From Alphaproteobacteria bacterium (GTDB lineage: Bacteria > Pseudomonadota > Alphaproteobacteria > Micavibrionales > Micavibrionaceae), in contig JAACPE010000001.1 in the NCBI GenBank assembly GCA_009995595.1, positions 62,001 to 126,000 on the forward strand: DNA of 64,000 nt, read 5' to 3'. Below the pieces are notes generated by a model, which saw nothing but the letters and a program-made list of their open reading frames with translations, searched no databases and was not told the origin of the DNA. This document shows, in pieces, positions 21,647 to 35,100 of this stretch (position 1 is its first letter; the number at the start of each line of letters is the position of its first letter). The position numbers were made by a program, and so were the translations under genes.

Positions 21647-22168
21647 TTAGAATAGATTTTGAAAAGATTGCACAATTATGTGGTGATACTGTATTGCGCC
21701 CATAATAATAATCCCTGCCGCAAATCCTGGACCAGCGGGTATACGAAGGCGTGTCATATTAATGGGTTGCTTATTTTTATAGGCGATATAAATGGCGTAA
21801 ATAATACCGTGAATAAGCCCAGCAAAAGCGCCAACTGTTATGGCAAAAAAAACACCTTCCAGCCCAAGCCAAATGCCGCCTGCGCCCAAAAGTTTGACAT
21901 CACCCAGTCCAAGTGAGTCTTGTTTATAGTACCAATTGCCAACCGCACGAATAGTGTAAAGTGTCCAAAAACCGGCAAGCGCGCCGTATGCGCTTTCATG
22001 AACGGATATCTCCTGAAAACCGTCAATTAATAAGAACACAAATCCAAGCAAGGCAAAGGCAGCAACCCAAATATTAGGTAGAATAAAGGTTCTTAGGTCT
22101 ATGTAAGATAAAATGCCTAAAACAAAAATGCCTGAAAAGGCGATGAGGAGAGTAGCGATATCAATCAT
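21647..22168 (-). CDS. Prepilin peptidase, A24 family, short form
   Basis: A 173-residue polytopic aspartic peptidase that cuts the leader of type IV prepilins at the cytosolic membrane face. The two catalytic aspartates are in YIDLRTFILPN (Asp about 23) and GLGDVKLLGAGG, the GxGD motif. It lacks the N-terminal zinc and methylase domain of PilD, as in CpaA/TadV or R64 PilU-type enzymes. It lies just upstream, on the other strand, of the pilus locus and is the likely processing enzyme for the two pilin-like proteins there. Confidence 0.9.
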   Translation of the reverse strand: MIDIATLLIAFSGIFVLGILSYIDLRTFILPNIWVAAFALLGFVFLLIDGFQEISVHESAYGALAGFWTLYTIRAVGNWYYKQDSLGLGDVKLLGAGGIWLGLEGVFFAITVGAFAGLIHGIIYAIYIAYKNKQPINMTRLRIPAGPGFAAGIIIMGAIQYHHIIVQSFQNLF

Positions 22169-22234: not shown

Positions 22235-22328
22235 AAGGTACTGTAAGATTGCGTAAATTGTAAGAGTCTATTAGCTTGTTAACTATTGATTCTTGAAAAC
22301 TCTTTAACCGATGTCTGGCAAAACATTT

Positions 22329-22715
22329 ATGTCTGAAAATAAGATTATTCTGGTAGTTGAAGATAACGATTTTGTGCGTATGCAAATCGTCAAATTCTTG
22401 ACAGACGCTGGCTACAAAACTGTTGAAGCGACAGAAGGGGATGATGCATTAAGTAAAATAGCATCCCAGCATATAGATTTAGCGATAGTCGATTTGCGAA
22501 TGGAGCCTGTGGATGGATTTGAGTTTATCCGCGCTATGCGTGGTAAAAATATTAAAATTCCCGTTATTCTGGCTACTGGTGATGATAGTCCTGATATTCT
22601 AGAACAAGCAAATACATGGAATGTTGGGTCTGTTCTTATCAAGCCGATAGAAAAAGATCGTTTGGTGAAAACGGTCGAGCGGACATTTAAAATTTGGGAG
22701 AGAACCTCTTTATGA
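22329..22715 (+). CDS. Single-domain response regulator at the head of the pilus locus
   Basis: A 128-residue receiver domain: acidic pair in VVEDND, phospho-acceptor Asp55 in AIVDLRMEPVDGFEF, Thr in LATGDDS and Lys in VLIKPIE. No output domain follows. I start at ATG 22329 because it leads straight into beta-1; an ATG at 22311 would add six residues, and neither has a clear SD. Its stop overlaps the secretin start as ATGA (22712-22715), so it is coupled to pilus synthesis. It could receive phosphate from the hybrid kinase at the other end of the locus, which is inference. Confidence 0.88.
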   Translation: MSENKIILVVEDNDFVRMQIVKFLTDAGYKTVEATEGDDALSKIASQHIDLAIVDLRMEPVDGFEFIRAMRGKNIKIPVILATGDDSPDILEQANTWNVGSVLIKPIEKDRLVKTVERTFKIWERTSL

Positions 22716-25039
22716 GACGCGCCACGATGACCTTTAAGCCTTTTTTATATTCTTGCCTTGTTGCAGGCGTATCCCTTTTTGTTTCTGGTTGTGCCGATGT
22801 AAATGTGCCAGATGCGCGTAACGTTAGTATTCCCTCTCCGGTGACAGCAGAGCAGCGACGTGAGGCGATTAACGAGCGTCCCGATAGTGTTATGTATTTG
22901 CCGCTTGGGGAGGATATCCTTATTCCTATGGAACTAGCGGGAGAGCAGCTTCCCAAAGACAGGGTTGGACCGTTTGAGCTTCGTGGTGAAACGCTGGCAG
23001 GTGCTTTGCAGCTTATTTTAGCGGAATATGATATCGCACTTGCTTTTGAGACCAACGAGGGACTGACCCGCCAAATTACAGTCGCAAATCTAAGTGGCCC
23101 GCTTGACAAGGTTGTCGCTCGTGTTTGTTCGCTAGCTGACCTTTATTGTTCTTACGAAGACCAGGCTATTATTGTTAAGGATACGCAAGTCTTTACTGTC
23201 TCTTTACCGCCAATTGGTAATGATGGGGAAACTGATTTTATTAATGATGTGATTGAAGGGCTGACAGCTATTGTTGGCGAAGAGGCGGCTGCACCTGTTT
23301 CGGATGCGACAACGCGCTCTGTTATTTATACAGCAACGCAGCGTAGTTCGAAAATGGCAGAGCAATATTTCCAACGGTTGCGCGCCAATACGGCGCTTGT
23401 TGTTTTCGAAACTTATATTTGGGAAGTTTCTTTAAATTCAGGAAATTCAACTGGGATTAACTGGGATGAATTTACAACTTTTGGAAAGTTTAATACGGGT
23501 ATATCCGTCGCAGGTAGCGTTGGTGCAAACTTTACAAACCCTGTGAGTATTGGGTTGCCAACAACCAACTTTATTGGCCGTGATACAAATCCTGTTGAAT
23601 TTGTTCGTTTTCTCTCGCAATTTGGGGCCGTTAAAACAATATCACAGCCACAAATCTCCGTTTTATCGGGCTCTCAAGCTGATTTACGCGTGGCTGATAC
23701 GCAAAACTTTGTCTCTGAAATTACAACAACTTTAAGTGAAGGGCAGTCTACAACCTCTGTTACGACAGATAGTGTGGATACAGGCTTTACGCTGACAATT
23801 GGGAGTTCATGGGATAAATCGACAGTTTATGCGGATGTAAACATCTCGCTTGAAAATGTTAATGCTATTGAAGATTTTACTTTCTCAGATGGGGGCGCAG
23901 CAGGGACGAGCACGACGATTCAGTTGCCACAAACATCAGAGCGTGAACTCAATACGCAAATTCGTGTACGTCCTGGCGATTCAATTCTCATCGCAGGGCT
24001 TGTTCGGGAAAGCGACAATTTTGATAGCCGAGGCCCAGGGTTTATGGAGCCGATTTTGCCCGATAGCCGCACTGCAGAAACGCGTAATCTTGAGCTTGTG
24101 TTTATGATGCGCCCGCGCGTGATTGTTTATACTTCTGGCGATGATCAACGTTATAAAAATTACCTTGCATCTAAAACAGCGCCTACCAGTTTGATAGAAA
24201 GCCCTGTTATTGGGCTTGTCAGTGAAGATGTTTTGCAACCTTCTGCACCAATAGATCCGATGCCTATGGTATCAAAAGCGCCGAGTATTGGCCCTGTCAT
24301 AGCAGAGCCTATTATGATTGAGCCTTCTGCGCCCCCCGTAATTGAGCCCGTGGCGATGAGTGAGCCGATTGAACCAATAATTCAAAAGATGTCAGAACCT
24401 ATTATTATGAGCGCGCCGAGTGACTCCTATTTGCCCCCTGTTTCAAGAGAGCCGATGAGTGCTAGTGTTTCTGCCCCTCTCGTGATGAGTGCTTCAAGTG
24501 AGAGTTATGCCGCAGAAACGCAGATGCCCGCTGCTGCGAAGCCCAGAACTGTTGAAGAAATCTTAGCAGAAGAAACATATGCTGTTGCCCCGCGTTTAAC
24601 TGCGCCTGCAGATGTAGCGCCCATTATGGCGGCGCCTGTTTATGTTCCTCAAACTGTCGCTCCTGTCTCTATTGTCCCTGCAGAGCCTTTTGTCACCTCT
24701 GCGCCGCCGCCTAGAACAGTGAATGATATTTTAGGGAGTGACCCTATCGTAAACTTTAATTTGACTGAAGACGCTGCGCCGCCAGAGGCTATGCTTGAAC
24801 CTGCTTTAGTGCCTAATTTATATGTTGAAGAGCCCGTTGCGCCTGCTCTTATTCAGCCCTCAATAGCGGTCAGAGCAAACTCATATTCTTCTGGCTATGA
24901 AGAGCGTTATACACCATCAACATCATCCGCGCGTGTTTCAAGGCAAGCACCCAGAACATCCCAAGGCGATAGAATTGTTGCGCCAAGCACGGGGTATGGT
25001 GGTTACACGTCCTACAATTCTAATGAGGCTGGGCGTTAA
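22712..25039 (+). CDS. Lipoprotein secretin of a type IVb-like pilus (PilN/BfpB-like)
   Basis: A 775-residue outer-membrane secretin. The signal peptide ends in LFVSGC, giving lipidated Cys27. Residues about 90-160 form a small N-terminal domain (GPFELRGETLAGALQLILAEYDIAL), and the secretin beta-domain covers about 210-490, with QFGAVKTISQPQISVLSGS, the central gate region and TQIRVRPGDSILIAGLVRES near its end. A lipidated secretin without long N1 repeats fits the R64 PilN/BfpB/TcpC group. About 280 residues after the channel are Pro/Ala/Ser/Met-rich and include RTVEEILAEE and RTVNDILGSD, a repeated motif. That tail is unusual. The start overlaps the upstream stop (ATGA). Confidence 0.88.
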   Translation: MRRATMTFKPFLYSCLVAGVSLFVSGCADVNVPDARNVSIPSPVTAEQRREAINERPDSVMYLPLGEDILIPMELAGEQLPKDRVGPFELRGETLAGALQLILAEYDIALAFETNEGLTRQITVANLSGPLDKVVARVCSLADLYCSYEDQAIIVKDTQVFTVSLPPIGNDGETDFINDVIEGLTAIVGEEAAAPVSDATTRSVIYTATQRSSKMAEQYFQRLRANTALVVFETYIWEVSLNSGNSTGINWDEFTTFGKFNTGISVAGSVGANFTNPVSIGLPTTNFIGRDTNPVEFVRFLSQFGAVKTISQPQISVLSGSQADLRVADTQNFVSEITTTLSEGQSTTSVTTDSVDTGFTLTIGSSWDKSTVYADVNISLENVNAIEDFTFSDGGAAGTSTTIQLPQTSERELNTQIRVRPGDSILIAGLVRESDNFDSRGPGFMEPILPDSRTAETRNLELVFMMRPRVIVYTSGDDQRYKNYLASKTAPTSLIESPVIGLVSEDVLQPSAPIDPMPMVSKAPSIGPVIAEPIMIEPSAPPVIEPVAMSEPIEPIIQKMSEPIIMSAPSDSYLPPVSREPMSASVSAPLVMSASSESYAAETQMPAAAKPRTVEEILAEETYAVAPRLTAPADVAPIMAAPVYVPQTVAPVSIVPAEPFVTSAPPPRTVNDILGSDPIVNFNLTEDAAPPEAMLEPALVPNLYVEEPVAPALIQPSIAVRANSYSSGYEERYTPSTSSARVSRQAPRTSQGDRIVAPSTGYGGYTSYNSNEAGR

Positions 25040-25041
25040 TA

Positions 25042-26748
25042 ATGAGATATAACAGATCCAGACAAACTCTAAATATAATTGTTGTGGCGTTATTTTTAAC
25101 GCTCACAAATTTATCTGCTTTTGCGCAGTCTGCATTCGAAGACCCAGGGACGCGATCATCTGCAGCAGGCGAGACAAATGCAGGCGGTCTAGTAGCGATT
25201 ACGAGTGACCTTGATAGCGGTAACGTCACATTAGGGTCTTCTTCGCAGATTGTTCTTTTGTTTAGAAATGATTCCAGTAAAGACGTCACGATGGGCGCCA
25301 TTAACTTATATCCCTCTTCTAACGTTTCAGCCAGTATTGCCCAAAACCAGTGTGCACAAGACCCCCTTGCTCCTGACGCAATATGTGCGATTGCCCTTCA
25401 GGTGAAGGGACTTCAGCCGGGGCGTTTTCGCGTTGAAATGCTTATCCGTCATGATGGCCGTACAAAGCTTATTACTTCAACAGTTCAGGGGCTTGTTGAT
25501 GCTTCTGATGATACGCGTTTAGAATTGGTCAATGATGTTGAGGCTATTCCGCAAGATCTTGATTTTGGATCATTAAATGAAAGCCGCACACAGATACGTT
25601 CTATTATATTTAGAAATATTACATCTAAGAAAATTGTAATTGAGGATATTTTTATTCAAGCCAATCCACAATCAGGCTTTTCTTTGGATGCCAATTGTCC
25701 AGAGCTTAATACAGGGGAGGCCTGTGTTGCTACTGTAACATGGGCGCCTGTTCAGCGCGGGCCTGCGACAGGTGTGCTGATTGTCAAGCATGATGGCCCT
25801 GCAGCCGTGGCGAGTGTTACCCTTGATGGAACTTATGAGCCTGATAGTGCCTCTGAAGCGGAAGTGTTCCCTGAGGCTGTGCCAGGTAAAGGGTTGTTGA
25901 CGGCGTCACAGACTGATATTGATTTTGGATCAGGAATTGAGAGTAGTTCTTCGATAACAGTTTCTCTTGTTAATGTTGGCGATGCGCCCATTCTTTTAAA
26001 AAATATCCGTCTGTCTAATGACAAAAATGGCATCGTCATTTCGCCGCAAGGTTGTGCGCCTGGTGTCAGGCTTGATCCTGTTGAGGCTTGTCCCCTGACA
26101 TTGACGTGGGAGCCAACGCGTGAAGGTAATATTCTTGATGATATTCAGATTTCCCATGATGGAGCGCGCGGTATTTTAGTTCTTCCTCTTCGGGGTAATG
26201 CGACAAAGGCGATTAACCGTGATAGTGAAGCGATCTTCCTTGATAGTAATATTCTTAATCCATCCAATCCTTATTTAAGTTCGTTCCCGACATTGCCGGC
26301 TTCTGCGCTTGATTTGCCAGCCGAAGAAGAAGAGGTCACGACTGTTACTGAAACGGTAAAAAATGAAGATGGAACAGAGACTGAAGTTACCCGTAAAACA
26401 GTAACAACAAAGGCTCGCGCTCCTTCATCTGCGGCGGTGCCACAAAAACGTGTTGTTGATTTGCGCGGTGCCCTTGATGGATATCGTATCACTTCGATTG
26501 GTCAGAGCCGCGGCATTATTTCAGGGCCGGGAGGAAGCCGCGTTGTCTTTAATGGCGAGCAAGCCGTTATAGGCGGTATTTTGTGGGATGTGACTGTGCG
26601 TGCCAGTGCGATTGAGTTTGGGGCAAGTGAACAAAAAGTTTTGCTTCTTTTTGACCGATCTTTAACAACTTTTAACGCAAATGGTGCAAACTCTAACGAG
26701 GGGACTGTCGTTACAACTGATACGGCGACCACTGACACAGATAATTAA
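25042..26748 (+). CDS. Periplasmic pilus protein: three ASH/choice-of-anchor-D-like domains plus PilP-like C terminus
   Basis: A 568-residue exported protein, signal peptide ending AFAQ (about residue 29). Three repeats of about 100 residues each contain a DFGS/NVTLGS-like strand, a hydrophobic 'fxN' strand and a Cys pair (CAQDPLAPDAIC, CPELNTGEAC, CAPGVRLDPVEAC), the look of ASH/HYDIN or choice-of-anchor-D Ig-like domains. After an acidic, Thr-rich linker comes YRITSIGQSRGIISGPGG and VIGGILWDVTV, which resembles the beta-domain of PilP/GspC that contacts secretins. I infer a secretin partner. It is 2 bp after the secretin. The combination is not one I recognise from described pili. Confidence 0.75.
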   Translation: MRYNRSRQTLNIIVVALFLTLTNLSAFAQSAFEDPGTRSSAAGETNAGGLVAITSDLDSGNVTLGSSSQIVLLFRNDSSKDVTMGAINLYPSSNVSASIAQNQCAQDPLAPDAICAIALQVKGLQPGRFRVEMLIRHDGRTKLITSTVQGLVDASDDTRLELVNDVEAIPQDLDFGSLNESRTQIRSIIFRNITSKKIVIEDIFIQANPQSGFSLDANCPELNTGEACVATVTWAPVQRGPATGVLIVKHDGPAAVASVTLDGTYEPDSASEAEVFPEAVPGKGLLTASQTDIDFGSGIESSSSITVSLVNVGDAPILLKNIRLSNDKNGIVISPQGCAPGVRLDPVEACPLTLTWEPTREGNILDDIQISHDGARGILVLPLRGNATKAINRDSEAIFLDSNILNPSNPYLSSFPTLPASALDLPAEEEEVTTVTETVKNEDGTETEVTRKTVTTKARAPSSAAVPQKRVVDLRGALDGYRITSIGQSRGIISGPGGSRVVFNGEQAVIGGILWDVTVRASAIEFGASEQKVLLLFDRSLTTFNANGANSNEGTVVTTDTATTDTDN

Positions 26749-26771
26749 GCGCGGCAGTAACTAAGGGCTCA

Positions 26772-28643
26772 ATGGACGATAACGACACGAATTTTGATCC
26801 GCACTCAACACCTCTTATTCCTGTTGAGGTTGCTTCTGCTGGTCAGGATAAAGAAATTGACGTTGTTGAAGGAGCGGTTCAAGAACGCCGCGGCGGTGAT
26901 CGTCGTAAAAAGAATATAGGCCCCCCTTTTGGTGTTGAACGCCGCAAAGCCACAGACCGCCGTAAAATAAGAAGCAAAGAAGGCCGCGAACGTTACCTTG
27001 ATATGGTTCACCGTGAGCGTGCGATGCTTCTTGAATATGGTGTGTCACGCTCAACAGAGCAGCTTTTGGACATGGCGGGCGCTATTTCTGATGATGGCGG
27101 CGACCAAGAAGAAGGGATGCGCTACCGTGCTACGGGCGATCAGCTTCGTACTATTTTACCAGTGCAATCTTGGCTACCGCTAAGTATTCATTTAATTGGC
27201 CTGCAAGAGGGTATCTTGAAAATCGCCCCTTTAAATGATCTCAATGAACGCCAGCTAGAAAGCCTGTTATCAGCAGCGCGGCGAAGCGGATTTCACGTTG
27301 ATGAGATTGTCTCTGAAATGTGGGATCGGGCAGAGCTTTTGGATACGCTGCGTTCTGTGCATGATTTGTCGGCTGATCGTTGTGAAAAAACATTGTCAAT
27401 GTGGCTTAGTGATATTGATAACGGTCTTTTACTTAACCGTTTCTTACGCGATATGATGGCAGAATCTTTACAAATGCGTGCATCTGATATTCACTTGGTA
27501 CAGGACAATAACCCTGATGCGCCGAACTGGATTCGGTATCGTATTGACGGCGATCTTATCCCAATTCATCTTTTACCTGCCGAGGCGATGGCGCGTTTGA
27601 CCACGCTTTTAAAACGGGATGCGGGTCTTAACTTTGGTGATCGTGTGACCCCAAAAGATGGTCGTTTTGGTTTTGTCTGGCAGGGGCGGACGATTGACGT
27701 CCGTGTTGCCGCAGGGCCGCAAGCCCAAGATGGTGAAAAGATCACATTGCGTTTGCTTGACCGCGCCGCCTTGAAAGGCTTTGATGAATTATTCCGTCGC
27801 CATGAAACCGTTGGCGATAATCTGGCTAATCTTTTGTCGCCTGAAATTAAGGGGGGCGGGGGGCTTATCCTTCTCTCAGGCCCAACGGGATCTGGTAAAA
27901 CAACCACGCTTTATGCGTGCGTTCAGCAAATTGACCGGCGGCGTAAACATGTTTTAACAATTGAAGATCCAATTGAGTACGAGCTTCGTTATTCGACGCA
28001 GTGGCAAGTTCGCCCCGGCCAAGAGGGGGGCGGTTTTGCTGATTTGATTCGTGCCTCAATGCGCCATGACCCTGATTATATTATCATCGGTGAGATGCGT
28101 GATTCTGATACGGTGGAGACAGCACTTCGCGCTGCAGAATCTGGCCACACCGTTATCTCAACGATTCACGCCGATACGGCGCTTCAAACATTCGAGCGGA
28201 TGAGATCTCTTATGCCATCTGAGCGTGAGCGTTCCTCAACATACACACTCGCACAGCAGGTGCGTGCTATTTTAAACCAGCGTCTTGTGAGGACATTGTG
28301 TCAGGGCTGTGCCCATAAAAAGATATTAAAAGATGTTGTGCCCCCTGAGGCACTTAAAGAATTTGGTTTGACGGGTGACGAAAAAGTTAAAACGCATAAT
28401 AGTTCAGGCTGTGATCTGTGTAATAGAACGGGTATTTCAGGTCGAACACTTTTACTTGACGCGCTTTTGATTACATCAGGTCCTGGTCAGAGAAACCATA
28501 TTTATGAGGCACTTTTAAATAATCCGCATGATTTGATCGGGTGTAATGATGTTATTGTTCATACAAGGCGCGAAGGGCTGGTTGATTTGGTCATAAGCGG
28601 ACAAATTGACCCCGTTTCTGCCCGATCTTATCTTGAAGAATAG
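26772..28643 (+). CDS. Type II/IV secretion-type pilus assembly ATPase
   Basis: A 623-residue hexameric motor ATPase of the GspE/PilB family driving pilin extraction. The N-terminal 70 residues are charged with repeated RR-x-DRRK motifs. An N1E-like region follows (about 125-210). The catalytic core has Walker A GPTGSGKTTT (370-379), Asp box TIEDPIEYEL, Walker B IIIGEMRD (Glu441) and His box STIHAD. A four-cysteine zinc site (Cys510, 513, 547, 550) marks the assembly type rather than a PilT retraction motor. No second ATPase is in the locus, so retraction, if any, is not PilT-driven from here. Confidence 0.95.
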   Translation: MDDNDTNFDPHSTPLIPVEVASAGQDKEIDVVEGAVQERRGGDRRKKNIGPPFGVERRKATDRRKIRSKEGRERYLDMVHRERAMLLEYGVSRSTEQLLDMAGAISDDGGDQEEGMRYRATGDQLRTILPVQSWLPLSIHLIGLQEGILKIAPLNDLNERQLESLLSAARRSGFHVDEIVSEMWDRAELLDTLRSVHDLSADRCEKTLSMWLSDIDNGLLLNRFLRDMMAESLQMRASDIHLVQDNNPDAPNWIRYRIDGDLIPIHLLPAEAMARLTTLLKRDAGLNFGDRVTPKDGRFGFVWQGRTIDVRVAAGPQAQDGEKITLRLLDRAALKGFDELFRRHETVGDNLANLLSPEIKGGGGLILLSGPTGSGKTTTLYACVQQIDRRRKHVLTIEDPIEYELRYSTQWQVRPGQEGGGFADLIRASMRHDPDYIIIGEMRDSDTVETALRAAESGHTVISTIHADTALQTFERMRSLMPSERERSSTYTLAQQVRAILNQRLVRTLCQGCAHKKILKDVVPPEALKEFGLTGDEKVKTHNSSGCDLCNRTGISGRTLLLDALLITSGPGQRNHIYEALLNNPHDLIGCNDVIVHTRREGLVDLVISGQIDPVSARSYLEE

Positions 28644-28675
28644 CTCTGATATATAAAAAGGCATAAAGGGGAATT

Positions 28676-29899
28676 ATGCAGCAATGGATTGCAGAAATAG
28701 CGTATGATAGCATGTCTGGGGTTAAAAGGATTGAAGAGTCTTTTTATCTTCCTAGTATTGATGACGTGCGCGAGGCGGTTCATAAAAAAGGCGGCTACGT
28801 TATTGCTATACGGGCGCACAAACGATCTGCTATTGAACGGTTTTTGGCGCGTTCAACTTGGTGGCAAGTTCAGCTTTTACGCGGTATTCAATTTCGCTCC
28901 ACATCTGTATCGTCACCTGGCGTGGCGCTTTGGCGTATTATTGAGGCGGAAACAAGCCCGCGCCGGCAAAACATTCTCTCTCCTGCACGCGAAGCGCTCT
29001 CCAGAGGCCTTGGTGTAATTGACGCCTTGAAGGCGCTCAATATTTTTGATTTTGGTACGCTTGCGATTTTAGCGGCGTCTGAAAAAGCCAATAAGCTCTC
29101 AGAGGGTATCCCGCACGCTATTCAATCGATTACCCAGAAAAGGAAAAACCAGCGCGCTATTATGGGGACGATGGGCTGGCTTGGTTTTGATGTGCTCACA
29201 ATTGTGTCATCATTGGCGGCTGGTAAAGAAATGGTCCTGGGCTGGTTTGGAAATAATAAACCGACTGAACCTGATAAATTAGCCGAATATGAACGGGTCG
29301 TCGGTAATTTAGGACTGACATGGGATATTCTTATTTGGATTGCGTATGGCTCTGCAATTTTCATGGCCTGGGCCTTGTTTTCTTTTTATGTTAACAAAGG
29401 GAAGGTTGATTGGCCGACCGCGCGTATTGTCCGTAAAATTCCGCTTATTGGGTCCTATATGCGCGATTTGGGCTTTTCTGATTCGATGATGGCGTGTGCT
29501 CGAATGTTAAAAGGGCATGTTCCTATTAATGATGCGCTGGCTCAAGCGGGTGAGGCGACAAGTTCTCCTGAGGTCAGAAAATATTGGGAAACGGCAAATG
29601 CCGAGCTTGAGCGGGGTATTGGGCTTGGTTCTGCGCTAGACCGCGCGCCGCTATCACGCGGAGAGCGCCTTGAACTTGCGAGCTTGTCTGATCTTGATCA
29701 AGTTGCTACAATCGTTGAGTCAATTGCAGAAATGCGAGCCAGTTCGGCAAAGACAAAACATTCTTTAATCGTCTGGATCGCTTTTGCGCTTACAGGCGTT
29801 TTCTTAGCTATAGCCTTTGGAAGTGCCATTTACGCACTAACGGTTATGAATATGAGTATGGATAGTATGATGGGCGGACTCATGGGGGGAGCACTTTAA
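28676..29899 (+). CDS. Pilus inner-membrane platform protein (PilC/GspF family)
   Basis: A 407-residue polytopic protein with two GspF-type helical repeats. The first (about 95-200) reads LSPAREALSRGLGVIDALKALNIFDFGTLAILAASEKANKLSEGI, and the second (about 265-355) has MMACARMLKGHVPINDALAQAGEA. Hydrophobic segments lie near 165-185, 215-240 and 365-390. It forms the rotor platform contacted by the ATPase. The N-terminal about 60 residues (IAYDSMSGVKRIEESFYLPSIDD...) resemble the leader domain of PilC proteins. AAAGGGG precedes the ATG. It is 32 bp after the ATPase, in the same transcript. Confidence 0.9.
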   Translation: MQQWIAEIAYDSMSGVKRIEESFYLPSIDDVREAVHKKGGYVIAIRAHKRSAIERFLARSTWWQVQLLRGIQFRSTSVSSPGVALWRIIEAETSPRRQNILSPAREALSRGLGVIDALKALNIFDFGTLAILAASEKANKLSEGIPHAIQSITQKRKNQRAIMGTMGWLGFDVLTIVSSLAAGKEMVLGWFGNNKPTEPDKLAEYERVVGNLGLTWDILIWIAYGSAIFMAWALFSFYVNKGKVDWPTARIVRKIPLIGSYMRDLGFSDSMMACARMLKGHVPINDALAQAGEATSSPEVRKYWETANAELERGIGLGSALDRAPLSRGERLELASLSDLDQVATIVESIAEMRASSAKTKHSLIVWIAFALTGVFLAIAFGSAIYALTVMNMSMDSMMGGLMGGAL

Positions 29900-29900
29900 C

Positions 29901-30872
29901 GTGGGTGTATTTAGTAAAGCAGATAAAGCTAGAGGCGCTGTCGAAGAAAAACGGCAGCGTTTTGTGCCGCGCCCGGGTCTGAGTGATCGTTTAGCGGGTG
30001 AAGCGGACCGTTTTGTTTCAGAGTTGAAACCATATCTTCCTCAAGAGCTTGTGGGCGGATCTGTGCCGCACATCGCTGGATTGGAAGATGAAACGGTATG
30101 GAACGCGGCGTCCCAAGCTTGCGGGACTGAAAAAGTGCATTTCACGTATTCTATCGATGAGGGGAAATGCTGGTATCTTGCCTGCGCGTCATCGACCTTG
30201 GCCTCAAACCCAGATACTTGGTGCCCTTTGGCAGCGGCCTTACCGGGAAATAGCGAGTATTGGGATAAAGAAACTGTTTATCTTTATGAGCAAGAAGGTA
30301 TTGCCTCAGCCCTAAGGTGGGATGGGGATTCTGGCCGTATGCAAGTGTTCTTAGGCGCAGCAAGAAGTTTGTTGCCGCGTATTCAAAGCATGGATGCCAA
30401 TTTTGTGACAATTAACACGGATATTGCCGATATCGTGCCGTGGAAAAACAAAATGTTGAACACGGAAAAGCTATCCCGAGCGACAACGAAAATGCTTTTA
30501 TTATCTGGTGTTGTGACCACCTTTATTATTTTGGCTTTTTTGATTTTTCAATTTGTTCTGACCAATACTGTTCAACGTGATCTTGAGGCCGTTAAACTCG
30601 AAACGACAACGGTAACAGAAAGATTGATGTTACAAGCATATGACGCATTGCAGTCCGATACGATTAAACACATGGTGCGTATTCAAGAATTGCTGGATGA
30701 ATTAAAGGCAATTGATGGGACGCTTGTGAAGTATGAGGTCACAGGATCATCGCTGACATGGGAGGCGCTTATTCCCCAAGGGCTCGAAAAATCAGGCTCA
30801 ATGAAAAGTGCAGAGGTTTTAGGTCTTGAAGAGGGTGGCTCTAAACGCATACGGGTGCGTGGCAGACGATAG
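29901..30872 (+). CDS. Bitopic pilus assembly protein (PilO2/BfpC- or PilM-N-like topology)
   Basis: A 323-residue protein starting with GTG. It has about 197 cytosolic residues, one membrane segment (about 198-221, MLLLSGVVTTFIILAFLIFQFVL) and about 100 periplasmic residues beginning with a coiled-coil (ETTTVTERLMLQAYDALQ) and ending in a small alpha/beta part. This layout matches BfpC/PilO2 of type IVb systems, or a PilM-PilN fusion, that links the motor to periplasmic proteins. Sequence identity to named families is not evident to me, so the role rests on topology and on its place after the platform gene. Confidence 0.65.
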   Translation: MGVFSKADKARGAVEEKRQRFVPRPGLSDRLAGEADRFVSELKPYLPQELVGGSVPHIAGLEDETVWNAASQACGTEKVHFTYSIDEGKCWYLACASSTLASNPDTWCPLAAALPGNSEYWDKETVYLYEQEGIASALRWDGDSGRMQVFLGAARSLLPRIQSMDANFVTINTDIADIVPWKNKMLNTEKLSRATTKMLLLSGVVTTFIILAFLIFQFVLTNTVQRDLEAVKLETTTVTERLMLQAYDALQSDTIKHMVRIQELLDELKAIDGTLVKYEVTGSSLTWEALIPQGLEKSGSMKSAEVLGLEEGGSKRIRVRGRR

Positions 30873-31004
30873 AAATAAGAGTAAGTTGGTTAAAATTAGA
30901 TAAAATTTTATATAAATTATTGATAATCCTAAATGGACCTTAATGTTTTTTAGTTACAATTTTATATACAATTTAAATAGTTTGTAAAAACGCTGGAGAG
31001 TAAA

Positions 31005-31538
31005 GTGGACTTTAAGTCACTTGATTTTAATAAATTAAAAAAGCTGTTGGATCCAAAGGCGTCCGCAGATTTAAACACGTTTTTGGAGAGATTACCCCAA
31101 AATGCAGGCCAAACGGTTTTGATTGCCGCAGCAATTGCATGGGGTATGGCCGCAGCTTTGGGGCTTTATACTGCTGTCAAGGTGCAACAGTTAACTGAGC
31201 TGCGGGCAGAGTTAAAAGAGACACAGGCCTTAAAGCCAAATGTCCCAACAATTAATAATGTCCCCATTGATAAAGCATCGGTTGATAAATTTGTTGCTGA
31301 TGCAAAAGAGATATATCGAGGCCTTAGTATTACCGCCAGTGGCTCAACGGTTATTATTACGGCAACAAACACAAGGAATTTTACAGAATTTAGAGAAGCA
31401 CTCGGTCACGTCCAAAATGGGGGGCAGGGATGGCGTGTTTCACTAGAAAAACTATGCGTTGGACGAGAATGTGACAAAACACACAAACTGGCGGCATCCC
31501 TCAAAGTTAACAAAGTGAGTGTACAACCACCAAGTTAA
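31005..31538 (+). CDS. Small bitopic pilus protein (PilO/PilP-like)
   Basis: A 177-residue protein started by GTG 31005 with TGGAGAG upstream. The N-terminal 35 residues are cytosolic, a membrane helix spans about 37-57 (TVLIAAAIAWGMAAALGLYTAV), and the rest is periplasmic: a short coiled-coil (QLTELRAELKETQALKP) and an alpha/beta domain with ITASGSTVIITATNTRNFTEFREALG. A Cys pair (CVGREC) may form a disulphide. The fold order resembles PilO/GspM alignment proteins. The 132 bp before it are very AT-rich and could hold an internal promoter. Function is inferred from context. Confidence 0.65.
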   Translation: MDFKSLDFNKLKKLLDPKASADLNTFLERLPQNAGQTVLIAAAIAWGMAAALGLYTAVKVQQLTELRAELKETQALKPNVPTINNVPIDKASVDKFVADAKEIYRGLSITASGSTVIITATNTRNFTEFREALGHVQNGGQGWRVSLEKLCVGRECDKTHKLAASLKVNKVSVQPPS

Positions 31539-31590
31539 GCTTTGAAATCATTAGAAATAATGATTAAATACGACAAATTGGAGAAAAATT

Positions 31591-32367
31591 ATGGGTTCAG
31601 TAACTATGCAAATTAAAAACACACAAAGAAAGAGCGAGCAAGGCAACGTGCTGTTTCTTATTCTCATTGCCGTGGCGCTCTTTGCGGCGCTGTCATATGC
31701 GGTGACTCAATCAACGCGTTCTGGCGGGGGTTCAGCAGACAGAGAGACCTCTATTTTAAGTAGTGCGTCGATGACACAATACCCTGCGGGGTTAAGAACC
31801 TCTGTTATACGGATGATCTTGGGGGGAACAGCTGTTGATGCAATGCTGTTTAATTCTCCATCAAATATTAGTGGATCAGAAACAGTAGAGCTTTTTCACC
31901 CAAGTGGTGGTGGCGCATTATATCAGAATGCCGCTAATGATATTATGGCAACAAATACTGCTGGGACTTGGTACATTAATGCTAACTTTTTTGTCCCTGA
32001 AATTGGTTTGACACCTGGAGGGAGCGTCTCTAGTGACGATGCAGCTGATGTTCTAGCGTTTTTGCCTGGTGTGTCCTCAACTGTATGTCGCAGGTTGAAT
32101 GAAGAAATAGGGATGGATTTGAGTTCTCCAGGTTGTACATTTCAAATTTCTACAGCACCGCAGGTGACATTAGGAACGCCTGCAAAAATTTCAGAAAACA
32201 TTTCATCATCTGGAGATTTTGCATCACAGGCTGCTGCAGCAGATGAGTTAGAAGGGGATGGCGGGTCTTGTAAAGTTCTTGCTGGATTGCCTTCAGGCTG
32301 TTTTTTTGAGCCGAGTTTAGGTACAAGCGGACAGTTTGTCTTCTATTCTTCTATTTTAGAAAGATAA
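31591..32367 (+). CDS. Pilin-like protein with class III-like N terminus, candidate major pilin
   Basis: A 258-residue protein with a short basic leader and a candidate prepilin peptidase site EQG|NVLFLILIAVALFAAL, after which a long hydrophobic helix continues (SYAVTQSTRSGGG). Position +5 is Leu, not the Glu found in canonical type IV pilins. The soluble part is Gly/Ser/Thr-rich with Cys pairs (VCRRLNEEIGMDLSSPGC and SCKVLAGLPSGC). I have seen this N-terminus in uncharacterised alphaproteobacterial proteins. It is the first pilin after the assembly genes and is followed by its own terminator, which suits an abundant product. GGAGAAA lies 7 bases before ATG. Confidence 0.65.
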   Translation: MGSVTMQIKNTQRKSEQGNVLFLILIAVALFAALSYAVTQSTRSGGGSADRETSILSSASMTQYPAGLRTSVIRMILGGTAVDAMLFNSPSNISGSETVELFHPSGGGALYQNAANDIMATNTAGTWYINANFFVPEIGLTPGGSVSSDDAADVLAFLPGVSSTVCRRLNEEIGMDLSSPGCTFQISTAPQVTLGTPAKISENISSSGDFASQAAAADELEGDGGSCKVLAGLPSGCFFEPSLGTSGQFVFYSSILER

Positions 32368-32390
32368 GGTAGGTCTGCTAAAGATTTTCA

Positions 32391-32427
32391 AAACCCAATC
32401 TACCTTTAGGTGGGTTGGGTTTTTTTC
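32391..32427 (+). terminator. Terminator between the two pilin-like genes
   Basis: AAACCCAATCTACC (32391-32404) pairs with GGTGGGTTGGGTTT (32409-32422) through two G-U pairs and a four-base loop, followed by T's to 32426. It should end most transcripts after the first pilin gene; read-through or a separate promoter would feed the second. Confidence 0.85.
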
Positions 32428-32442
32428 AAAAGGGGATAAAAA

Positions 32443-33159
32443 TTGGAATGTTTTTTAAAAGAAAAGACCAAACAAAGTGGTAGCGCGCTTGTCTATATTC
32501 TTATAGCGATTGCGCTTTTGGCGGCGCTTACGGCTTCGTTTATGCGGCCTTCATCACAACAAACAACTTCACAAAATACGTTTAATACAATAACAGAGCT
32601 TAATTCACAGATTAATTTTATTCGTTCTGCCATCCAAGAATGCGTGCTGACTTACCCTGGCGGCGATACGGCATTAATTGGTGATCCTTCATATAACTCA
32701 CCTTATCCTCTTAATCCGTCTAGTGCTTATTTCACACCCGCTCCGAAAAGTGGCGCGGCGGCAAATGACCAAGTACGTAATATCCTCTGCCCTGGTAACC
32801 CTGGTGATAGTAACGATCACGCCGATATTTTTGGCGGGCGTTCAGGAAAGTTCTTCCCACCGCCTGTAAAATTATTTGAGGAGTGGGAATATTTTAATAA
32901 TCAAGATGGTGTTTTTTTCTTAACACGCACAACCAAAACTGACGCATTTTTAAAAACTGCAATGGATAAACTTGATGATCAATACTCTGAATGTGAGATG
33001 GATGTGTTTGACCCCGGGGCAGGATTAGGTAATGGATTGGTAAGTTTTAATCCTGACATAGCATGTAACGAAGTTTATTGTCTCAGGATATGGCTCATTA
33101 CAAATGACAGCGCCGTTTACAATGGTGATGCAGATGGTGATGAAGTGGGTTGCCCTTAA
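32443..33159 (+). CDS. Pilin-like protein, candidate minor pilin
   Basis: A 238-residue protein starting at TTG 32443 (AGGGGAT 8 bases upstream). The leader ends QSG|SALVYILIAIALLAALTASF, closely parallel to the neighbour and likewise lacking Glu5. The soluble domain carries several cysteines and asparagine/proline-rich loops, and ends NGDADGDEVGCP, an acidic DxDxD pattern that could bind calcium. Larger size and low expected expression (it follows a terminator) fit a minor or tip pilin. The gene ends 3 bp before the convergent hybrid kinase stop. Named function is inference. Confidence 0.6.
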   Translation: MECFLKEKTKQSGSALVYILIAIALLAALTASFMRPSSQQTTSQNTFNTITELNSQINFIRSAIQECVLTYPGGDTALIGDPSYNSPYPLNPSSAYFTPAPKSGAAANDQVRNILCPGNPGDSNDHADIFGGRSGKFFPPPVKLFEEWEYFNNQDGVFFLTRTTKTDAFLKTAMDKLDDQYSECEMDVFDPGAGLGNGLVSFNPDIACNEVYCLRIWLITNDSAVYNGDADGDEVGCP

Positions 33160-33162
33160 AAA

Positions 33163-35100
33163 TTAAAGCGTGCTTAGCTCTATTTTAACGGCATCAAAAT
33201 GCTTGTTGATATCGATCACTATATTTTTGAAGTCTAAATTACTCTCAGACGCAGTTTGTAACTTTCCTGCCGAATTTCCTAACATGCTTGCTCCAGCAGA
33301 TTTTGCCGCGCCTTTAAGGCTATGAGCGGCTTCAGTAAGGTCATGCCTGTTTTCATCTTCTGCGGCCTTGTTGATTTTATCGACAATTGGTTGCGCCATG
33401 GCGGGAAACATTTTTAACATGGCGATAACGCTATCATCCCATGCTCCCATTTGTTTGATAACGGCGTCTTTATCTATGGCTGTTAAATCTCCACTCGCTT
33501 TATCGCTCTGGTCTATTGCTAATGTCTGATGATCGCTCTCTTTCAATAGACCCCATCGAATGAGAAGGCGTTTAAATTGCCCCAAAGAGACGGGTTTTAA
33601 TAAACATTCATCAAAACCATGTGCCATATAAACTTGCCGTTGTGCCATCTGTACATCGGCAGTAAGGGCGATTACGGGAAAGTGACGATCAAGGGCTTTG
33701 TCATCTTTACGTATTTCCTCAATAACACCATACCCGTCCATTTCAGGCATATGGAGGTCGGTCAGTAAAATACCGTATTCACCGCTACGGACCGCTTTTA
33801 AGGCTTCTTTACCATTTTCTACAAAGGTGGCCTGCGCCCCAATATTATCAAGCTGCTTTCTTAATACGTGACGAACCGTTTCAGTATCTTCAGCGATTAG
33901 AAGTTTTGTAGGGCCGCTAATTTCTATTTTCGTTGCCTTGCTGGCGGCGTCTTTAACAGCTTCACCTAAACCGATACGGCTGGCAGGCTTGGTAAGATAG
34001 GTTACGCCCAAAGTCTGCAAGGTATGTTGAAGTCCCGCGTCATCGCGGACGGTATACATGATTAAACCCATAAAAGGGCGCACTTCCATAATCTCTCTTA
34101 TAAGATTAAGGCCAAGTCCATCAGGGAGCCCTTGGTCGATAATGGCCACATCAAAGGGGCGACGTTTGATCAACTCTAATCCTTCGGCGTAGGTTGGGCA
34201 GCTTTCAATAGTGGCGCCCATGGAACGCATGGATTTGACAATCTCTTTTGCGCCCATGGGGTGATCTTCGACGGATAAGATGGAGATGCCCTCTAAATTG
34301 GGCATGTCGAAATTTGTGGCCTCTGTGCTTACCTCTTCGGTGGGTATTTCAAACCAAAAGCTCGATCCTTGTCCCTCAATGCTGTTGACGCCTATTTGAC
34401 CCCCCATAAGCTCTACGAGTTTTTTACATATGGATAGACCAAGCCCTGTCCCCCCAAATTTACGGCTGGTGGAGTTATCAGCCTGAGTAAATGGCGCAAA
34501 GAGCTTGTCGGCGACTTCTTGGCTCATACCCATTCCTGTATCATTGATTTCAAAGCGTAAAATAAGTTTTGGCGGTGGTAAGTCATTTTCATCACTGACT
34601 TTTGTGATCTTGATTGTCACAGACCCCTGGCTTGTGAATTTTAGGGCATTACTCATAAGATTCATAATGACCTGACGCAGACGTTTGGGGTCTCCAACAA
34701 TCACAAAAGGGACATTGCCATCAATATCGTCTAGCAGCTCAACAGATTTTCCCTGTACTTTAACCGCCATCGCCTCGTTAATACCGCGCGCTAAAGTGCG
34801 GATGGGCACTTCAAAGAAATCAAGTTCCATTTTGTCAGCGTCCATTTTGGCGAAATCGAGAATATCATCGAGGATTTCAAGCAAGCCGCTTGCTGATTGC
34901 TTGGCTGTTTGAGCCATATTCAAGACAGTATCATCAGGATTTTCATATTCAATCAGCTCAAGTAAGCCGTAAATAGACTGCATCGGCGTTCTAATCTCAT
35001 GGCTCATTGTCGCCAAAAAGTTCGATTTTTGTTCAGCCAGCGCGTCCGCTTTTTTAACGGCGCGCTGCAAATCTTTAATAGTGTCGTTTTTATCAGTCAT
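33163..35100 (-). CDS. Cytosolic hybrid histidine kinase with two receivers and an HPt domain
   Basis: A 645-residue protein with no membrane segment or sensory domain beyond a short N-terminal coiled-coil. HisKA has His34 in ATMSHEIRTPMQ. The HATPase has N, G1 and G2 boxes (MNLMSNALKFTSQG, FEINDTGMGMS, RKFGGTGLGLSIC). REC1 (about 270-385, IIDQGLPDG) and REC2 (about 400-520, LLTDLHMPEMDGYG) follow, then a C-terminal HPt with AAHSLKGAAKSAG. This is a complete BarA/ArcB-like phosphorelay without input. It abuts the pilus locus head-to-tail and may signal to the receiver protein at 22329 (inference). It is divergent from asd. Confidence 0.93.
   Translation of the reverse strand: MTDKNDTIKDLQRAVKKADALAEQKSNFLATMSHEIRTPMQSIYGLLELIEYENPDDTVLNMAQTAKQSASGLLEILDDILDFAKMDADKMELDFFEVPIRTLARGINEAMAVKVQGKSVELLDDIDGNVPFVIVGDPKRLRQVIMNLMSNALKFTSQGSVTIKITKVSDENDLPPPKLILRFEINDTGMGMSQEVADKLFAPFTQADNSTSRKFGGTGLGLSICKKLVELMGGQIGVNSIEGQGSSFWFEIPTEEVSTEATNFDMPNLEGISILSVEDHPMGAKEIVKSMRSMGATIESCPTYAEGLELIKRRPFDVAIIDQGLPDGLGLNLIREIMEVRPFMGLIMYTVRDDAGLQHTLQTLGVTYLTKPASRIGLGEAVKDAASKATKIEISGPTKLLIAEDTETVRHVLRKQLDNIGAQATFVENGKEALKAVRSGEYGILLTDLHMPEMDGYGVIEEIRKDDKALDRHFPVIALTADVQMAQRQVYMAHGFDECLLKPVSLGQFKRLLIRWGLLKESDHQTLAIDQSDKASGDLTAIDKDAVIKQMGAWDDSVIAMLKMFPAMAQPIVDKINKAAEDENRHDLTEAAHSLKGAAKSAGASMLGNSAGKLQTASESNLDFKNIVIDINKHFDAVKIELSTL

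Follow-up and report, generated by a model that had tools for sequence, protein, structure and literature searches.

A strongly conserved Micavibrionales locus of the type IV filament superfamily whose pilins lack Glu5

The locus described here lies in a stretch of 64,000 nt of Micavibrionales DNA (the window), from a source genome of 1.99 Mb that is 99.97% complete, and encodes a machine of the type IV filament superfamily in which neither pilin carries the classical glutamate at position +5 (Glu5). It occupies positions 22329-33159, all on the + strand, and opens with a single-domain response regulator consisting of the receiver only (22329..22715; PF00072, 84 bits; an in-frame ATG upstream, at 22311, is also possible as start), a family in which the D-x-R-M/L motif is present in 64/64 members. 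The stop codon of the receiver overlaps the start of the next gene in an ATGA at 22712-22715; a preliminary description of the locus had called the two products fused by overlap, and the overlap is there, but it is a translational coupling without protein fusion. The second gene encodes a lipoprotein secretin, the outer-membrane channel (22712..25039; PF00263, 62.7 bits; lipobox VSGC, the lipobox pattern being found in 57/66 homologues), and is followed by a periplasmic ASH/Ig-like protein with a C-terminal HR-like domain (25042..26748; ASH PF15780, 67.2 bits), an assembly ATPase of the PilB/GspE type (26772..28643; T2SSE, 268 bits), an inner-membrane platform of the GspF/PilC type present as a single copy in the locus (28676..29899; T2SSF, 38.6 bits), bitopic protein 1 (29901..30872), bitopic protein 2 (31005..31538), pilin 1 (31606..32367) and pilin 2 (32443..33159). 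Just outside these limits and on the - strand, a short A24 prepilin peptidase without the N-methyltransferase domain (21647..22168; PF01478, 60.7 bits) is a conserved neighbour in most homologous loci, and a convergent, syntenic hybrid histidine kinase (33163..35100, - strand; Pfam HisKA, HATPase, two REC and Hpt) is probably the regulator of the locus. Every part listed in the preliminary description was thus found in its place.

The secretin, the ATPase and the platform are of an ordinary kind, yet they fall far under every system-specific cut-off. The secretin scores 100.9 bits with the MshL model (cut-off 250.2) and 73.3 bits with that of PilN, also below its cut-off, and the GspD, GspE and GspF equivalogs give 54.5, 239.4 and 27.5 bits against cut-offs of 351, 630 and 424. 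Pfam and NCBIfam searches with the locus proteins gave no match to GspC, GspG, GspH, GspI or GspJ, no PilM, PilN, PilO and PilP set and no PilT; neither HMM nor profile recognised PilO2, PilP, PilR or PilS of R64 in this machine; and the locus matches no curated set for type IVa pili (T4aP), type IVb pili (T4bP), the type II secretion system (T2SS), the mannose-sensitive haemagglutinin (MSHA) pilus or the tight adherence (Tad) system. The profile searches called for by the preliminary description therefore place the locus in no characterised pilus type. In a tree of 38 sequences built on a small reference set that leaves out BfpD and TcpT, this system's ATPases group together in a clade of their own (ultrafast bootstrap, UFBoot, 99), which falls outside the clade of the R64-type T4bP PilQ (UFBoot 94) and outside the T2SS/T4aP group (90).

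The uncommon make-up claimed for the locus stands as far as these profiles go, but not for the ASH partner and bitopic protein 1, which look like remodelled standard parts, as the odd-looking components of the locus mostly are. The C-terminal ~70 residues of the ASH protein (aligned region 26467..26677, approximate limits) are related by hhalign to the small protein that takes the same slot in the homologous loci L141-L145 (probability 95%, P=3.5e-8), and this small protein is itself related to the T4aP PilP over the HR region (probability 75%, P=2.5e-5). From these alignments we propose that the ASH protein could be a PilP/GspC equivalent ending in a PilP-like HR domain. Bitopic protein 1 is matched by no Pfam or NCBIfam model. 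It comprises a cytoplasmic domain of ~195 residues, a single transmembrane segment (residues 198-216) preceded by a PW motif as in PilN, a coiled coil and a ferredoxin-like periplasmic domain whose model matches PilO (2rjz, Z 6.9) and PulL (8a9w, Z 6.9), with further matches to XcpY, EpsL and PulM, all five lying within Z 5-6.9. Its identification by sequence profile as R64 PilO2 or as GspL or GspM of E. coli was tried and gave no signal, the periplasmic link being structural only. On the strength of the models it looks like a GspL/BfpC-like protein, in which a putative cytoplasmic adaptor would be fused to a PilN-like part. The absence of PilM had been put forward as a feature of the locus; no PilM match exists there, but the arrangement of bitopic protein 1 implies that PilM is probably replaced rather than simply missing. 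Bitopic protein 2 has one N-terminal transmembrane segment and, in the alignment, a periplasmic domain with a conserved C-x-G-x-x-C motif, and may be called PilO/GspM-like by its position only.

Both pilins have class III signal peptides, EQG|NVLFL for pilin 1 (a start at 31591 is also possible) and QSG|SALVY for pilin 2 (whose start codon, TTG, is uncertain). Position +5 is Leu in 64/64 Micavibrionales members of the pilin 1 family and Tyr in 61/61 of the pilin 2 family, in agreement with the claim that the locus holds no classical Glu5 pilin, and in the wider pilin set it is Leu, Pro, Thr, Met, Tyr or Ala; Glu was absent from this position in every member examined, operonic or paralogue. Pilin 1 has two invariant Cys, and its AlphaFold2 model has a mean confidence (pLDDT) of 87.7. 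With a second structural aligner the model matched PilA1 of C. difficile (Z 6.2), TcpA (5.0; 140 residues aligned, root-mean-square deviation 8.1), CofA (4.2) and PilS of S. Typhi (3.7); these top four matches are all type IV pilins, three of them type IVb, and the next one has a Z of 2.6, no unrelated fold coming near them. A type IVb-like fold is therefore predicted for pilin 1. Pilin 2 aligns with homologues on betaproteobacterial plasmids and has a weak GspK match. Searches of the pilin profiles against PDB sequences gave only matches of the hydrophobic helix and were discarded. The type IVb-like character first attributed to the locus thus holds for the predicted fold of pilin 1, but it does not extend to a kinship with the R64 type, which neither the ATPase tree nor the accessory proteins indicate.

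The locus is genuine, and its conservation is strong. The relatives, recruited with a conserved locus protein, were metagenome-assembled genomes labelled Micavibrio, Alphaproteobacteria or nearby names, and the comparison covers 80 homologous loci from public genomes, 50 of them with long flanks. The order secretin, ASH protein, ATPase, platform, bitopic protein 1 is retained in 49 of these 50 long loci, and the full set of 11 genes, from the prepilin peptidase through the hybrid kinase, in 36, so that the arrangement is not due to chance. The hybrid kinase is the downstream neighbour in 52/80 loci, several others ending before its position. Bitopic protein 1 was detected in 59 of the 78 genomes of relatives. 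In seven long loci (L085, L089, L093, L096, L097, L098 and L103) the match stops at bitopic protein 1, and bitopic protein 2 and the pilins go undetected; their right half is either too diverged for detection or different.

The most unusual feature of the system is its dispersed family of Glu5-less pilins. Profiles, the only means by which prepilins were sought, gave ten pilin-family matches in the source genome, one of which is pilin 2; eight family genes are spread over seven places away from the operon, most of them standing alone amid unrelated genes. The solo pilins have in common a G|hydrophobic beginning that lacks Glu5, and in most of them the terminal stretch is rich in aromatic residues and near to YxxLLAR. 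A comparable set exists in three genomes of the same genus, where the pilins fall into about eight groups represented in several species, and the family numbers 7-12 in most relatives. Pilins and machine occur together: at least two pilin-family genes are present in 56/59 genomes with bitopic protein 1 and in 1/19 without it, this single exception being an 87% complete assembly (Fisher p ~1e-13 for the 78 genomes, shared ancestry ignored; the genomes without the machine span several families and genera). Two Micavibrionales genomes, G052 and G059, have 36 and 26 matches to the pilin 1 family.

Outside Micavibrionales, the bitopic protein 1 profile found matches in eight further alphaproteobacterial genomes among 385 sampled from the class. 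The secretin, the ATPase, the platform and the two bitopic proteins lie in order in all eight, the ASH protein is in its usual slot in five, and recognisable pilins are present in most. The gene-neighbourhood comparison that had been suggested across alphaproteobacteria thus yields a conserved core in relatives and outsiders alike. The receiver, which had been taken for a pilus component, is conserved in Micavibrionales but is not in the core of the outside relatives; it and the hybrid kinase are Micavibrionales additions to this wider core. In three of the outside loci (L141-L143) a small periplasmic protein occupies the ASH slot, VirB8- and VirB9-type genes flank the filament core on one side, and on the other, where the contig reaches, stand VirB10-, VirB11- and VirD4-type genes; these type IV secretion system (T4SS) genes were assigned by Pfam in L143 and by similarity in L141 and L142. 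A Dot/Icm link suspected by eye for the three loci was abandoned, Pfam showing VirB8, CagX/VirB9, TrbI/VirB10, VirB11-like and VirD4-like genes. The same gene order is found on two betaproteobacterial conjugative plasmids, of Rhodoferax ferrireducens T118 and Methylibium petroleiphilum PM1, both with HMM matches for the secretin, the ATPase, the platform (8e-33 and 4e-30), both bitopic proteins and both pilin families; they are the only two matches to the platform and bitopic protein 1 queries among 72,556 plasmids. On the Rhodoferax plasmid (L144:3635-7019), two adjacent secretin-like genes precede the ATPase and a peptidyl-prolyl isomerase stands among the pilins. A phylum-wide sample, drawn mostly from the same class and hence a weak test elsewhere, held one carrier besides the source genome, again an alphaproteobacterium.

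The source genome encodes other machines of this superfamily. Six T2SSE-family ATPases were found: that of the window, an MSHA-like PilB, PilT, PilU, a Tad ATPase and a DotB-like one. A separate MSHA-like locus (C1:412000-437000) has its own PilB, platform, MshL-like secretin, Glu5 pilin, PilT and PilU; its PilB carries an MshE-type cyclic di-GMP motif, and pilins with the N-methylation motif lie at C1:435822 (GFTLVE) and C1:667-671 kb. PilT and PilU stand beside this MSHA-like pilus, at C1:428725 and C1:430074, so that the absence of PilT noted for the locus is correct for the locus but not for the genome. Two A24 peptidases were found, the one of the window and one in the Tad locus; as the only non-Tad peptidase found, the former probably processes the classical pilin too. 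At C6:82490-86273 (L134:12515-16273) there are DotD-, DotC (T4SS_TraI)- and DotB-like genes of type IVB secretion, adjoined by a gene for an STN-domain protein; M. aeruginosavorus has been reported to be without a type IV secretion system. Near the Dot genes on C6 (L134:94-8778), and next to FlgK/FlgL-like genes, lies a series of large secreted proteins that are related to one another and ~470-980 residues long, the one tested having no Pfam match.

The model we propose concerns the order of assembly, the use of this machine by the solo pilins, the formation of a filament, adhesion, regulation and a role in predation, and it is built on what the sequences provide: the gene set, its conservation and homologies, the absence of Glu5 and the co-occurrence of pilins and machine. 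In this model, the short A24 peptidase would cleave the prepilins after Gly, and the ATPase would drive the GspF-like platform to pull mature pilins out of the inner membrane. Bitopic protein 1, with its cytoplasmic adaptor and PilN-like part, and bitopic protein 2 would make an alignment complex, which the HR-like domain of the ASH protein would dock to the lipoprotein secretin, while the Ig-like domains of the ASH protein may act at the cell wall or within the periplasm. The filament, made of the Glu5-less type IVb-like pilins (the operonic pair and, in this genome, the eight solo members), would exit through the secretin, and the receiver/hybrid-kinase pair would set the output. The presence of an operonic pair together with eight solo pilins suggests a pilus of mixed or exchangeable subunits, probably adhesive. 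We thus consider it reasonably probable that the locus encodes a single dedicated machine for type IV filaments, from a lineage not yet described, producing an adhesive pilus from mixed or exchangeable Glu5-less subunits. Lineage and subunit variety lead us to infer that such a pilus would plausibly serve contact with prey or surfaces in Micavibrio relatives; M. aeruginosavorus is reported to have an epibiotic predatory life and to express highly some pilus-related genes, which may be other than those of this locus (Wang et al. 2011, PMC3189940). A bolder version, which we advance tentatively and with more doubt than belief, sees a separate machine family whose major pilins are without Glu5 and whose fibre in Micavibrio-like, predatory alphaproteobacteria, drawn from at least eight dispersed pilins, would have an exchangeable prey- or surface-specific composition; if so, something other than the canonical contact of Glu5 must bring the subunits into register in the fibre.

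Several observations weigh against the proposed pilus. Glu5 is required for the assembly of classical type IV major pilins, and pilins without it are classically minor or initiating subunits; to our knowledge, no Glu5 major pilin exists for this machine. Foldseek alone gave no significant match for the pilin 1 model, and the structural matches reach a Z of no more than 6.2, a moderate value. The C-terminus of the ASH protein compared directly with PilP gives a weak P of 0.011, its HR likeness depending on the intermediate protein; the cytoplasmic domain of bitopic protein 1 is of low confidence in an AlphaFold model made from a 17-row alignment; bitopic protein 2 gave no significant signal with PilO, PilN or GspM profiles; and in two genomes, G043 and G053, bitopic protein 1 is divergent and no member of the pilin family was detected. 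The main rival, which we judge unlikely, makes the locus a T2SS-like system, whose Glu5-less proteins would form a short periplasmic pseudopilus pushing folded proteins through the secretin. Subunits without Glu5 are typical of GspK, of which pilin 2 has its weak match, and the HR-like domain, the GspL-like bitopic protein 1, the GspE-like ATPase and the lipoprotein secretin would all fit; moreover, M. aeruginosavorus has an annotated T2SS without GspC, G, H and K, mostly upregulated during attachment (PMC3189940), which could be this very locus. The lack of any profile match to GspG/H/I/J or GspC, the position of the ATPase outside the T2SS clade and the resemblance of pilin 1 to type IVb major pilins speak for a different machine, and the many pilin paralogues are more in keeping with a surface fibre than with a piston.

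The vicinity of secretion genes raises another explanation, that of an R64-like thin pilus holding mating or target cells for a T4SS, at least ancestrally. The core adjoins VirB8/VirB9- and VirB10/VirB11/VirD4-type genes in three genomes and resides on two conjugative plasmids, the TP114 pilus has such a role for an IncI2 type IV pilus (T4P; PMC9045228), and the source genome has its DotB/DotC/DotD-like genes elsewhere; yet in Micavibrionales the locus is not beside T4SS genes, PilO2, PilP, PilR and PilS of R64 go unrecognised, and only 2 of the 72,556 plasmids carry the machine, which makes this explanation decidedly improbable. Less probable still, and in our opinion barely credible, is a composite pilus in which the operonic pilins would be minor or tip subunits only, on a shaft of classical Glu5 pilin handled with PilT/PilU. 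A Glu5 pilin, PilB, PilT and PilU do exist in the genome, and the peptidase of the window must process the classical pilin too unless that of the Tad locus does, but the classical locus is equipped with an ATPase, a platform and an MshL-like secretin of its own, and the machine of the window is a full separate set.

A dedicated pilus of Glu5-less subunits would have several consequences. A conserved machine in which all the pilins are without Glu5 makes the textbook Glu5 rule directly testable; the ASH-HR protein would give an example of a rebuilt docking protein of the PilP type; the dispersed pilins suggest that a lineage known for its bacterial predators has a surface fibre of combinatorial make-up; and the copies adjacent to T4SS genes or borne by conjugative plasmids are relevant to the way in which pili and T4SS become associated. 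We found no published description of a system with this gene set, subscription journals being mostly outside the search. The profile-based survey of Denise et al. 2019 leaves many 'generic' systems unassigned (PMC6668835). Could this machine be one of those generic groups, or have been reported as an incomplete T2SS? Either may be the case.

In conclusion, the novelty of the locus lies within the type IV filament superfamily and not in a new kind of machine, as its comparison with the parts lists of the T4bP, T2SS and Tad systems emphasizes. With the type IVb pili of R64, the bundle-forming pilus (BFP) and the toxin-coregulated pilus (TCP) it shares the lipoprotein secretin, the single locus, the one ATPase and the one platform, as well as a pilin whose predicted fold is type IVb-like and which has a C-terminal pair of Cys; it differs from them by having no recognisable R64 PilO2, PilP, PilR or PilS, by its separate ATPase clade, by the absence of Glu5, by the presence of the ASH-HR protein and by the dispersal of its pilin paralogues. 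The T2SS has in common with it a GspL-like bitopic protein, an HR-like docking domain, a GspE/GspF-type motor and, in GspK, a Glu5-less subunit, but here there is no GspC/G/H/I/J match and no equivalog above its cut-off. The MSHA-like pilus provides the best secretin score, that of MshL, though at 100.9 bits for a cut-off of 250, and a separate MSHA-like locus of the source genome scores far better (MshL 227.9 bits). Tad (type IVc) systems, of which a Tad-type Kil system has been linked to predation in other bacteria (PMC12075869), likewise have a short prepilin peptidase, a single ATPase and no retraction partner in the locus, whereas the present machine has one GspF-type platform instead of the TadB/TadC pair, no Flp pilin, an ATPase of the PilB/GspE type and pilins of ~250 residues, the genome's own Tad locus being on C7. 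The T4P of the IncI2 plasmid TP114 (PMC9045228), finally, is likewise a type IV pilus found on a plasmid, with variable subunits setting target specificity; there the variation sits in the tip adhesin PilV, whereas here it sits in a separate family of pilin genes.

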